64,000 nt of DNA, from assembly GCF_014279835.1 (NCBI RefSeq), contig NZ_CP047942.1, positions 1,178,001 through 1,242,000 of the forward strand, given 5' to 3'. This document shows positions 58,259 through 62,326 of this stretch, one piece after another. This stretch comes from Synechococcus sp. MVIR-18-1. Its GTDB lineage: Bacteria; Cyanobacteriota; Cyanobacteriia; PCC-6307; Cyanobiaceae. Within the stretch, counting starts at the first letter, position 1. Each line of letters begins with the position of its first letter. A program made the translations under genes and the position numbers. The notes beneath the pieces are model-generated. The model made no database searches, was not told the origin of the DNA, and saw nothing but the letters and a program-made list of their open reading frames with translations.

Positions 58259-59359
58259 TCAGATATCTTTTAGCGTGGATTTGAGAACTTGTTCGTGTTT
58301 ATAGGCCTGTCGTTGAATACCTTGTAGATTTGATTTTGACGGTACTTGTGACATGCAGTCACTCCATTGCAATATTATTCTTTCAAGACTTGGCAGATGG
58401 GCTATGTCAAGCCAAGGTGCATCTGCTGTTTGTGCAGCGGCCTCCACCTTTGGGTCATAACTGAGTGCCACAGTGGGACACTGGCTAACAGTTGATAAAA
58501 TAAATGCATGCAACCTCATCGCAACAACTAGACTTGCATTGCTAAAAATATCTTGTGCATGCTCGATATTCTTTGCGATAATTGTTGATGATTTTGCTGC
58601 GAGTCTTTTGGGTACCAATCCTTTTTGGCTTAGCGTCCGTAGCAAGTTGACATCTTGATTGGCATGAAAGGCAAACCAAGTTACCGATTTTCCTTTGTTA
58701 TCGCTTAGTTGATCAACGGCTTCTAATAAGAGTGACCATCCCCTTGGCGTTAGCAGGTCTGTTGGGCGCCAACACAGCACTATATTTCCTCCTCCTTGAT
58801 AATCGTTTGCTTGGTGGCTCCACACTGGATCGGGTGCCACTGACATCGTCGTTGTGATCCCGATGCGTTTGGCTAGTTGCATCGATGCACTGTCTCTCCA
58901 GGTAATTGATTTTGCACTGTTCAGAACCCGACCCACGAGATAGCGGCTCCATGCATACCTCAATGGACCAAGACCTTGCCCCCACAACAAAACCGGTTTG
59001 TGTTTTATTCGTGCTACTAATATCAAAACAATGTAATAAACAAGACTTCGAAAACTTGTGCTGTCTTGGAGCAGGCTTCCTCCGCCAAGTACAACCACCT
59101 GAACATGTTTGATGCTCTTTAGGACAGTTTTTAAAGATCTTCTATTAACCACCTTTCCATTTGGAACAATTGTTTGAACTGCTGCTGCGTCATATGCAGT
59201 AATCAATGGTTGCCATTCTGTAGGCAACTGTTTGTTCAAGACTTCCAGAAGGGCATCATCTCCCAGGTTGTGTTCTCCGTAATAGCCACAGAGGAGAATG
59301 CGCCTCGGTGAGGAAGACGGAGCCTTGCCAGACATTTTGGACATTAGGGGGGCCTTCAT
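58259..59359 (-). CDS. csaB: polysaccharide pyruvyl transferase CsaB
   Basis: The 366-residue protein matches the CsaB family: ILLCGYYGEHNLGDDALLEVL at the N-terminus, VVLGGGSLLQDSTSFRSLVYY, LLWGQGLGPLRYAWSR, ITWRDSASMQLAKR and SNASLVVAMRLHAFI with SYDPKVEAAAQT. It adds pyruvate to a cell-wall-linked polysaccharide, which in some bacteria anchors S-layer proteins. No signal or membrane segment is seen. It stands alone, divergent from the DUF2499 gene across 48 bases. Confidence 0.9.
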   Translation of the reverse strand: MKAPLMSKMSGKAPSSSPRRILLCGYYGEHNLGDDALLEVLNKQLPTEWQPLITAYDAAAVQTIVPNGKVVNRRSLKTVLKSIKHVQVVVLGGGSLLQDSTSFRSLVYYIVLILVARIKHKPVLLWGQGLGPLRYAWSRYLVGRVLNSAKSITWRDSASMQLAKRIGITTTMSVAPDPVWSHQANDYQGGGNIVLCWRPTDLLTPRGWSLLLEAVDQLSDNKGKSVTWFAFHANQDVNLLRTLSQKGLVPKRLAAKSSTIIAKNIEHAQDIFSNASLVVAMRLHAFILSTVSQCPTVALSYDPKVEAAAQTADAPWLDIAHLPSLERIILQWSDCMSQVPSKSNLQGIQRQAYKHEQVLKSTLKDI

Positions 59360-59407: not shown

Positions 59408-59710
59408 ATGCATGCTCTTTCGCTCGGTACATGGTGGATTCATGTGGCGTCTGTTTTTGAGTGGTTGTTAGCCATGGTGTTGATCGCCCAGCGTGGATCA
59501 CTCCGCTCTCAGACGAGCATGATCTGGCTCTCAGCAGCCATGATTCCTGCATTGATCAGTGCCATGGCTGCATGCACTTGGCACCTGTACGACAATGCTG
59601 AGAGCCTTCGTTGGCTTGTCACTCTGCAAGCCAGTACAACCCTGCTTGGGAACATCACGTTGGCTTGTGCTGCCTGGAATCTGCAACGTGACGCCACGGT
59701 GAAGGGATGA
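59408..59710 (+). CDS. DUF2499 membrane protein
   Basis: The 100-residue protein has three hydrophobic segments (WIHVASVFEWLLAMVLIAQ, MIWLSAAMIPALISAMAACTW and TLQASTTLLGNITLACAAW) and the YDNAESLRWLVTLQA loop typical of DUF2499. The family occurs in cyanobacteria and chloroplasts. It overlaps the DUF3593 gene by 4 bases (ATGA). Function is unknown; a place in the thylakoid membrane is likely from its distribution. Confidence 0.87.
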   Translation: MHALSLGTWWIHVASVFEWLLAMVLIAQRGSLRSQTSMIWLSAAMIPALISAMAACTWHLYDNAESLRWLVTLQASTTLLGNITLACAAWNLQRDATVKG

Positions 59711-60036
59711 TTTCCAACTTTGATCCAGCCCCCCTCTTCGCGCTGTCTTTAATTCCCTACCTGGTGTTCCTCTATCACCTTGGGAGAAGCCGGCAGCTTC
59801 CAAAATTGACTGTTCTCGGGTTTCAGCTCACGCTTCTGTTCGTTGCCGTCACCATTGCTGCTGCTGTGTTTGCTCTGGTTCGCTACGACTCTGAATTGGT
59901 GGCTGTGGATTGGCTTCACGGTGGTGCTGAAGCGTTTCTGACACTGAGCAATGCCTGCATTGTTGCTGGTCTGCTCCGATTCAAATCCCACCAGCCAGTA
60001 AATAACTCTTACGAGGAGGAGATCTTGGGGCAATGA
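59707..60036 (+). CDS. DUF3593 membrane protein
   Basis: The 109-residue protein has three membrane segments (FALSLIPYLVFLYHLG, LGFQLTLLFVAVTIAAAVFAL and FLTLSNACIVAGLL) with WLHGGAEAFLTLSN, which is the DUF3593 core. DUF2499 and DUF3593 genes are usually adjacent in cyanobacteria and both have plastid homologues in plants. psaK starts 33 bases downstream, so expression with photosystem I genes is plausible. Function is unknown. Confidence 0.87.
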   Translation: MISNFDPAPLFALSLIPYLVFLYHLGRSRQLPKLTVLGFQLTLLFVAVTIAAAVFALVRYDSELVAVDWLHGGAEAFLTLSNACIVAGLLRFKSHQPVNNSYEEEILGQ

Positions 60037-60069
60037 AATCGGAAGATGAGGTGTCGCTTGTTGCGCTGC

Positions 60070-60327
60070 ATGTTTATTCCTCTTCTGGCTATTGCTCCTG
60101 CCACCGTTTCCTGGTCACCCAAGGTTGCCCTTGTGATGGTGGTCTGCAATGTCATCGCCATCGGGATTGGCAAAGCCACGATTAAGCATCCAAACGAAGG
60201 CATCAAACTGCCCGGTTCCTCCTTCTTCGGGGGTATGAGTCACGCAAGCATGCTTGCCACCACAAGCCTGGGACACATGATTGGCATTGGCGCAATCCAA
60301 GGTCTCGCAGCTCGAGGCGTGCTTTAA
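60070..60327 (+). CDS. psaK: photosystem I subunit PsaK
   Basis: The 85-residue protein is PsaK (subunit X), a peripheral photosystem I antenna subunit with two membrane helices: WSPKVALVMVVCNVIAIGIGK and MLATTSLGHMIGIGAIQGLAA joined by a loop (HPNEGIKLPGSSFFGGMS). I chose ATG 60070 (MFIPLLAIAPATVSW), the usual opening; an upstream ATG at 60046 adds a basic stretch without likeness. A 13-base-pair perfect hairpin follows the stop. Confidence 0.92.
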   Translation: MFIPLLAIAPATVSWSPKVALVMVVCNVIAIGIGKATIKHPNEGIKLPGSSFFGGMSHASMLATTSLGHMIGIGAIQGLAARGVL

Positions 60328-60382: not shown

Positions 60383-62326
60383 TCAGCCAGCTGATGAGAC
60401 TTCAGCTGGTGATTTTTCTTCGAGTTTTAGGAAACCCGTGGTTGGAAGCACGAAATGTTTTTTGATCCTCACTGCCATCTGATCCGGAGTTAAACCCAGG
60501 GCTTCAAAGCTTTGTTGGGGAGTTGCATGGTCCACAAGCCGGTCAGGAATTCCTATGCGCAGCATCGGAATCGCTAACCCCTTCTCCTGGAGCGATTCAA
60601 GAACAGCCGAACCGAAGCCACCTGGCAACGCTCCCTCTTCCATCGTGATGATCTTGCCGATTTTTTGGGCCATGGGATGAATGAGTGCTTCATCCAACGG
60701 CCGTAAGAAACGTGCATTAATCACAGTTGCCTCAACGCCCACTGCAGATAAACACTTTGCTGTGGCTACGGCCTTCGGCACCATGGCGCCGTAGGCAACG
60801 ATCAAAACATCGTTACCTTCACGCACGACTTCACCAAAGCCAATGGGAAGAGCTTCCCAGCCTTCCTCCATTAGGGGAACACCTTCACCGGGGCCACGAG
60901 GGATTCTTAGAGCTGTAGGGCCATCGTGATGGAGACAGGTCACCAGCATCCTCTGAAGCTCAGCTTCATCTTTGGGAGCCATCACGGTGAAATTAGGAAT
61001 CGCACGCATGTAGCTGATGTCGTATTGACCTTGGTGGGTTGGACCATCAGCTCCGACAATTCCGGCCCGATCCAAAACAAAGGTCACGGGCAGTTTTTGT
61101 ATCCCGACATCGTGGATCAGTTGATCAAAAGCTCTCTGTAAAAACGTGCTGTAGATGGCCACCACTGGCCTGAGTCCATCGCAAGCCATGCCAGCGGAGA
61201 GGGTGACTGCATGCTGCTCAGCAATGCCAACATCGATGTATTGGTCGGGAAGTGCTTTTTGCAGGATGTCCAGGCCAGTTCCAGTCGCCATGGCAGCTGT
61301 GATGCCAACAACCTTTGGATTCTGTTCGCAGAGTTTGACCAGGGTTTGTCCAAATACCTTGCTGTAGCTCGGTGGTTTTGGGGTTTTGCTGGGTCTTGCT
61401 TTACCAGTACTGAGATTGAAAGCTGACTGTGCGTGGTAACCAACTTGATCGGCTTCTGCGTAGGGATACCCCTTTCCTTTTTTTGTAACAACATGAACCA
61501 TGACCGGCCCACCAACGCGATGTGCGGCCTGGAACGATCGGGTCATTTCAGCAATGTCATGACCATCAATTGGACCCATATAGGTGAATCCAAGCTCTTC
61601 AAAAACGGCACCGACTTTGGGAACAGCGAGGCGGCGCATGCTCTCTTTGAGACGATTCAGCTCTGGTGGAATTTCTCCCCCCATAAAGGGGAGATGGCGC
61701 ACGCTTTCTTCAACGCTTCCAGACAAAAATTGAAGGGGCGGGCTTAATCGCATCCGGTTGAGGTAGGTCGACAGCGCTCCAACCGGTGGAGAGATCGACA
61801 TATCGTTGTCGTTTAAAACAACGAGTAGTGGGGTGGATGGCAGATGACCGGCATGGTTGATCGCTTCCAAGGCCATGCCACCGGTTAAGGCACCATCACC
61901 AATGACGGCAACACATTTGTAATCAAGACCTTGCCGATCACGGGCCATGGCCATTCCGAGGGCTGCTGAGATGGATGTGCTGGCGTGCCCTGCTCCAAAA
62001 TGGTCAAAACGACTTTCTGTTCGTTTTAAATAACCGGCCACTCCTCCCTGCTGACGCAGAGAGTCGAAGCTTCCATAGCGTCCGGTAATTAATTTGTGTG
62101 GATAGGCCTGATGCCCTACATCCCAAACCACTTTGTCCTGGTCCAGATCAAGGGTTTGGTATAGGGCCAGGGTTAATTCAACAACGCCTAATCCAGGGCC
62201 AAGATGTCCGCCGCTGTTTGACACCACTTCTAAATGGCGTTCACGAATTTGCTTGGCCACCTCTTCAAGCTGCGCCGCGGACAGTCCGTGCAGCTGATTG
62301 GGATGGGTTAATTCGCTCAGATGCAT
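60383..62326 (-). CDS. dxs: 1-deoxy-D-xylulose-5-phosphate synthase
   Basis: The 647-residue thiamine-diphosphate enzyme condenses pyruvate and glyceraldehyde 3-phosphate, the first step of the MEP isoprenoid path to carotenoids and phytol. It has the [15 protein letters not shown] and [18 protein letters not shown] openings, the [18 protein letters not shown] cofactor motif, and [18 protein letters not shown] and [10 protein letters not shown]. Length fits DXS. I chose ATG 62326; ATG 62332 is two codons upstream. It diverges from ilvA by 79 bases. Confidence 0.96.

Follow-up and report, generated by a model that had tools for sequence, protein, structure and literature searches.

Two small membrane proteins encoded directly in front of psaK in Synechococcus sp. 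MVIR-18-1 raise the question of what they do and whether their position beside a gene of photosystem I (PSI) is a clue to it. In the window, which is the whole 64,000-nucleotide stretch of DNA that was analysed (C1:1178001-1242000 of a single-contig genome of 2.45 Mb), the open frame of a DUF2499/Ycf49-family protein of 100 amino acids (59408..59710, forward strand) is followed by that of a DUF3593 protein of 109 amino acids (59707..60036, forward strand) and by psaK, which encodes the PSI reaction centre subunit PsaK of 85 amino acids (60070..60327, forward strand). A divergent csaB gene for a polysaccharide pyruvyl transferase lies upstream of DUF2499 on the reverse strand (58259..59359), and dxs is convergent downstream of psaK. 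Based on the profile searches, and for the two DUF proteins also on alignments, the first protein belongs to the DUF2499/Ycf49 family (PF10693, 119 bits against a cut-off of 22.1, profile positions 1-88 of 89) and the second to DUF3593 (PF12159, 114.8 bits against 25, positions 2-85 of 88), while the third was confirmed as PsaK by PF01241 (45.1 bits against 23.2) and by the NCBIfam equivalog TIGR03049 (120 bits against 67.95), and CsaB was recognised by TIGR03609 (347 bits against 213.1). DUF2499 and DUF3593 share four bases, ATGA at 59707-59710, in which the start codon of the second gene runs into the stop codon TGA of the first. The gap between the end of DUF3593 and the psaK ATG at 60070 is 33 bases long and would shrink to nine bases if the alternative in-frame ATG at 60046 were used. 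The tandem at 59408-60327, which the first-pass annotation had described with this overlap and this gap, agrees with both the frames and the profile matches. A terminator scan found no terminator-like site between the three genes; its one site, a stem with a T tail 3' of psaK (60386..60410, forward strand), overlaps the 3' end of dxs and is weak against a mean of 1.5 sites in shuffled sequences.

The survey of the phylum showed that the pair is nearly universal in the photosynthetic class to which the window belongs. Among 156 genomes that were sampled evenly from the phylum, 69 of them in this class (a total that was read from the kinship-sorted order of the matches listed) and 87 outside it, the profile search found DUF2499 in 67, and DUF3593 and the PsaK family in 68 each; every carrier in the matches listed was among the 69, with none of the three families in the 87 other genomes. 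Plastids have ycf49 as well, according to the available part of PMC4603697. The only class members without DUF2499 were the non-photosynthetic endosymbiont G147, whose DUF3593 match carries three stops, and G087, in which PSI, photosystem II (PSII) and PsaK are present and both DUF genes are missing. G087 was set aside as a case of true loss: its csaB is missing as well, and of the 20 other genomes in its family, 19 have csaB next to the pair, which suggests, without proving it, that one missing stretch would explain all of the absences. In the Synechococcus elongatus control, DUF2499 was present and DUF3593 gave no match, so the DUF3593 half appears to be dispensable.

Several variants of the genes were recorded in addition. 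One genome (G060) holds two complete DUF2499-DUF3593 pairs (C23:368626-369344 and C9:25036-25606). In another (G111:C71, L064:5360-8545), the DUF3593 gene is interrupted by about 2.8 kb with a group II intron, which gave a domain match to Rfam RF00029 (5471-5549) and carries a reverse transcriptase/maturase gene; the two DUF3593 pieces, if joined, make a normal DUF3593 protein. A third genome (G133:C33, L047:5078-5917) has a 280-residue frame in which DUF3593 is joined to a C-terminal hexapeptide-repeat transferase (Pfam Hexapep), a part that we take to resemble serine acetyltransferase. A MAG contig titled Chloroflexaceae (JAAUTE010000191.1, L168) encodes a DUF2499 protein that is 61% identical to the UCYN-A query and is probably a mis-binned cyanobacterial contig. 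No relatives of DUF2499 or DUF3593 were found in viral contigs and DUF3593 had no match in phage records; psaK is carried by one phage, P-TIM68 (two records).

Gene order was scored in the 67 genomes that have DUF2499, with limits of 600 bases to a same-strand DUF3593, 700 bases to a divergent upstream csaB and 600 bases to a downstream psaK. DUF3593 follows DUF2499 in 45 of them, from 15 of the 22 families, which, with psaK next in line in all six genomes of the window's own family, bears out the view that the tandem is not a product of chance. The two genes, which are an old pair, were also compared at 30 other loci that have both on the same strand, where the start was taken as the ATG nearest to the profile start. 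They overlap at 17, in eight of these by exactly four bases; close coupling is thus common and not special to the window's genome. The linkage to psaK did not hold as a general gene order: it was found downstream of the pair in six of the 67 genomes, all of them (6/6) from the window's own family (f1), labelled Cyanobiaceae here on the basis of size and gene content, whereas psaK was beside the pair in none of the 61 genomes outside this family. It was likewise adjacent in none of 80 named loci, the top-ranking ones among 563 relatives that the UCYN-A query matched, a set whose titles include no marine Synechococcus or Prochlorococcus and no Cyanobiaceae, and in which DUF3593 was adjacent in 54 and csaB (within 1300 bases) in 49. 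Because the positions of dxs and of a gene for threonine dehydratase are conserved at the same six loci, the psaK adjacency counts as roughly one inherited event. In G036 (family f10), DUF3593 alone precedes psaK, and DUF2499 lies elsewhere, beside csaB. A PsaK tree of 28 sequences placed the DUF-linked copies and the only UCYN-A PsaK in one of two groups (support 99/99), and four of the six Cyanobiaceae genomes have no other psaK. The window's genome has a second copy (G000:C1:793375-793572), on a long branch apart from the DUF-linked psaK.

The commonest wider neighbour was csaB, which lies divergently upstream of DUF2499 in 34 of the 67 genomes and 11 of the 22 families; this order is deeply conserved without an evident functional link and may stem from a promoter region that the two genes share. 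No recurrent neighbour among photosynthesis genes was found outside the Cyanobiaceae in the gene-order survey. Wide separation from such genes in most cyanobacteria had been named beforehand as an argument against a photosynthetic role, and such separation is largely what the survey revealed; the link to PSI is supported instead by gain and loss in endosymbionts, as discussed below.

That the two proteins form one unit was further indicated by a natural fusion. In a Stenomitos rutilans MAG (L171), both domains lie in one 227-residue frame with no stop, in which an internal ATG precedes the second domain and from which an assembly error may have removed a stop. An AlphaFold model of this frame, for which the input was the frame itself together with 56 single rows and five pairs read through, reached a mean pLDDT of 91.4 and a pTM of 0.85, both uncontrolled values for one fusion frame. 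The model has three long helices in each half and low confidence only around the linker, and because a pTM of 0.85 spans two halves that are joined by a weak linker, it suggests that the halves pack in a defined way. Both this single natural fusion and the confident predicted packing therefore speak for co-assembly of DUF2499 and DUF3593. The three helices that had been assigned to each protein are likewise seen in the model, which is of a homologous fusion protein and not of the window's own chains. A diatom protein also holds both domains, according to the available part of PMC3478156, and differs in this from the window, in which two separate overlapping genes encode them.

The charge pattern and the helix order in the alignments suggest that both halves have the same topology, in which the first loop and the C-terminus would be stromal and the conserved His-bearing loop lumenal. 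The DUF2499 alignment has 20 invariant columns across 29 sequences, and the alignments of both families together with the fusion model place invariant His, Glu and Gln residues in or beside the predicted helices. When the fusion model was compared with the PDB by Foldseek, nothing matched at E <= 0.001 (the best E was 0.12), and VIA-align Z scores of up to 11.1 to seven-helix receptors are in the range that helical bundles may reach without kinship. Homology between the two DUF families was considered and is at most a lead, as their in-register alignment over 80 columns was not significant (P 0.18; E 0.072, probability 0.8%); their lumenal-loop and third-helix stretches are alike by eye. No relation of either family to PsaK was detected by profile comparison.

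The function of the pair is best approached through endosymbionts that have given up parts of photosynthesis. We compared two UCYN-A genomes (G157, 1,491,611 bp; G158, 1,443,806 bp) with those of four diatom spheroid bodies (G147, which is EtSB, 2,794,318 bp; G191, which is RgSB, 3,020,309 bp; G192; and G193). UCYN-A has retained PSI and lost PSII, as stated in the accessible portion of PMC11070190. Both UCYN-A genomes have DUF2499 and DUF3593 intact and side by side and also keep PsaA, PsaB, PsaK, Ycf4, cytochrome f and CsaB. Full-length CP43/CP47 was found in neither, and G157 has only a short remnant with stops. G158 has a 347-residue CP43/CP47-related frame without the middle of the profile (G158:C1:1021868-1022812), which by our reading is IsiA-like. 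The dN/dS values between the two genomes were 0.136 for DUF2499 and 0.100 for DUF3593, whereas PsaK had 0.031 and six further genes of the same stretches ranged from 0 to 0.143; both DUF genes are under purifying selection in UCYN-A. In the spheroid bodies, by contrast, neither gene was intact in any of the four genomes, which hold one remnant of DUF2499 and three remnants of DUF3593 with stops. None of the four has intact PsaA/PsaB or a PsaK match over the cut-off, and Ycf4 is intact in none and present as remnants in three; cytochrome f and CsaB are intact in all four. Literature on these bodies, as far as its available text goes, reports that nine of the ten genes of chlorophyll a synthesis remain in RgSB with no signs of decay (PMC5638926), that phylloquinone, tocopherol, phycobiliprotein and carbon-fixation genes were lost in the group (PMC12903740) and that thylakoids with respiratory transport are said to persist (PMC11070190).

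The contrast between UCYN-A and the spheroid bodies shows that the pair tracks PSI and Ycf4, and not PSII, the cytochrome b6f complex, CsaB or most of chlorophyll synthesis. It is kept with PSI in both UCYN-A genomes and lost with PSI in all four spheroid bodies, with G087 as the exception in the wider sample. Since the four spheroid-body genomes are related, their losses represent one or two events rather than four, and the pattern cannot separate PSI itself from phylloquinone synthesis or from other PSI-linked functions. We consider a link between the pair and PSI, of whatever kind, to be likely. Of what the first-pass annotation had suggested for a joint task in the thylakoid, a link to PSI is thus supported, mainly by the gain and loss in endosymbionts and not by gene order, and antenna binding gained no support.

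We propose that DUF2499 and DUF3593 would combine into a small heterodimer of the thylakoid membrane, to which each contributes three helices and whose work serves PSI. Its likeliest job may be to assist transiently in the biogenesis of PSI, such as by holding or loading a late part on the PsaK side, and in the Cyanobiaceae, the pair would now head a presumed operon with psaK. We assign a probability of roughly 0.55 to the pair being a heterodimeric PSI biogenesis factor. The DUF2499 profile matched no PDB sequence and the DUF3593 profile only PsbH at a chance-level E of 0.25, while the PsaK of the window, as a positive control, matched 33 distinct PDB sequences. Among PDB sequences, there is thus no relevant match that would make the pair part of the mature complex, although a map may still hold an unassigned chain, and because it is absent from all of the solved complexes, a biogenesis factor fits better than a subunit. 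The psaK neighbourhood in the Cyanobiaceae is compatible with a step on the PsaK side but does not prove it. In a Synechocystis screen of 12 unstudied ycf knockouts, a severe growth defect was seen for ycf51 only, as summarised in a commentary (PMC11062422); this would weigh against an assembly factor only if ycf49 was among the 12, which is possible. A more specific version is tentative: the pair may be an unrecognised, near-universal heterodimeric PSI factor, inherited by plastids as Ycf49/YCF49-like and sometimes fused, whose invariant His and Glu would hold a PSI cofactor during assembly.

A lesser but real chance is that the pair serves PSI in another way, either by delivering or handling phylloquinone, chlorophyll or carotenoid or by acting in PSI-dependent cyclic electron flow or its regulation. 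The endosymbiont pattern fits this equally well, the invariant His, Glu and Gln residues in or next to the predicted helices are in keeping with it, and in the spheroid bodies, phylloquinone and tocopherol synthesis disappeared along with PSI, as noted above. However, most of chlorophyll synthesis persists in RgSB despite the loss of both DUF genes, and neither family has an enzyme signature. It is very improbable that the pair has a general role in thylakoid membranes, cytochrome b6f or respiration; as small membrane proteins conserved across the class, the two would suit such a role, but both were lost from the spheroid bodies, in which cytochrome f is intact and thylakoids are said to persist together with respiratory transport. 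Equally improbable is a cell envelope function together with CsaB in making pyruvylated wall polysaccharide. The divergent csaB, which adjoins the pair in the window as in half of the genomes surveyed, would favour it, but all four spheroid bodies keep csaB without the pair, and three Cyanobiaceae (G107, G114 and G137) keep the pair and psaK with no csaB over the cut-off. Plastids, to our knowledge, are not expected to need CsaB. Yet they carry ycf49 (PMC4603697, in the portion available). A role in PSII, with which the occurrence of DUF2499 in 67 class genomes, the majority of which surely have PSII, and the position of psbE slightly further along the plastid ycf49 block (PMC4603697, same portion) would agree, is hardly tenable and nearly refuted by the retention of both genes under purifying selection in the two UCYN-A genomes without full-length CP43/CP47, unless the genes were re-purposed there.

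The proposed role in PSI biogenesis can be set beside what is known of relatives of the pair. The families and the plastid gene are already known and named: the Ycf49/DUF2499 proteins of plastids, plants (AT4G22830, 'YCF49-like') and cyanobacteria belong to the same Pfam family as the window protein. In cyanidiophytes and eustigmatophytes, plastid ycf49 lies directly before ycf4 in a petL-ycf49-ycf4 block, according to the part of PMC4603697 that was accessible, whereas DUF2499 in the window neighbours DUF3593 and psaK. With the plastid block, there are two separate neighbourhoods that include a PSI gene, which in the plastid case encodes an assembly factor. The PSI assembly factors Ycf3, Ycf4, Ycf37/PYG7 and Ycf51 are likewise small conserved cyanobacterial or plastid proteins, and Ycf4 shared the fate of the pair in the six endosymbiont genomes; for these factors, however, mutant and interaction data exist (PMC11449065, in its available part, and PMC11062422), whereas the putative role of the pair was derived from sequence. 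PsaK is a neighbour in the Cyanobiaceae and shows the same pattern in the six endosymbionts, but it is a solved PSI subunit without sequence relation to the DUF proteins, which occur in no solved structure. Of the plant PSI assembly factors, only Ycf3, Ycf4 and PYG7 are listed as also present in cyanobacteria in the accessible text of PMC11449065. The literature found, within the parts available, gives no function for DUF2499, DUF3593, ycf49 or AT4G22830; an apparent 'ycf49' in PMC6015050 was discarded, as in the text available it is Ycf4 followed by the superscript reference 9. As far as the literature search shows, a link of the pair to PSI by gain and loss in endosymbionts is not in print. 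This contrast turns a vague guess of 'photosynthesis-related' into a specific prediction for PSI, and the pair, which is present in 67 of the 69 genomes of the photosynthetic class, has relatives in plastids and is unstudied, could be a missing piece of PSI assembly.
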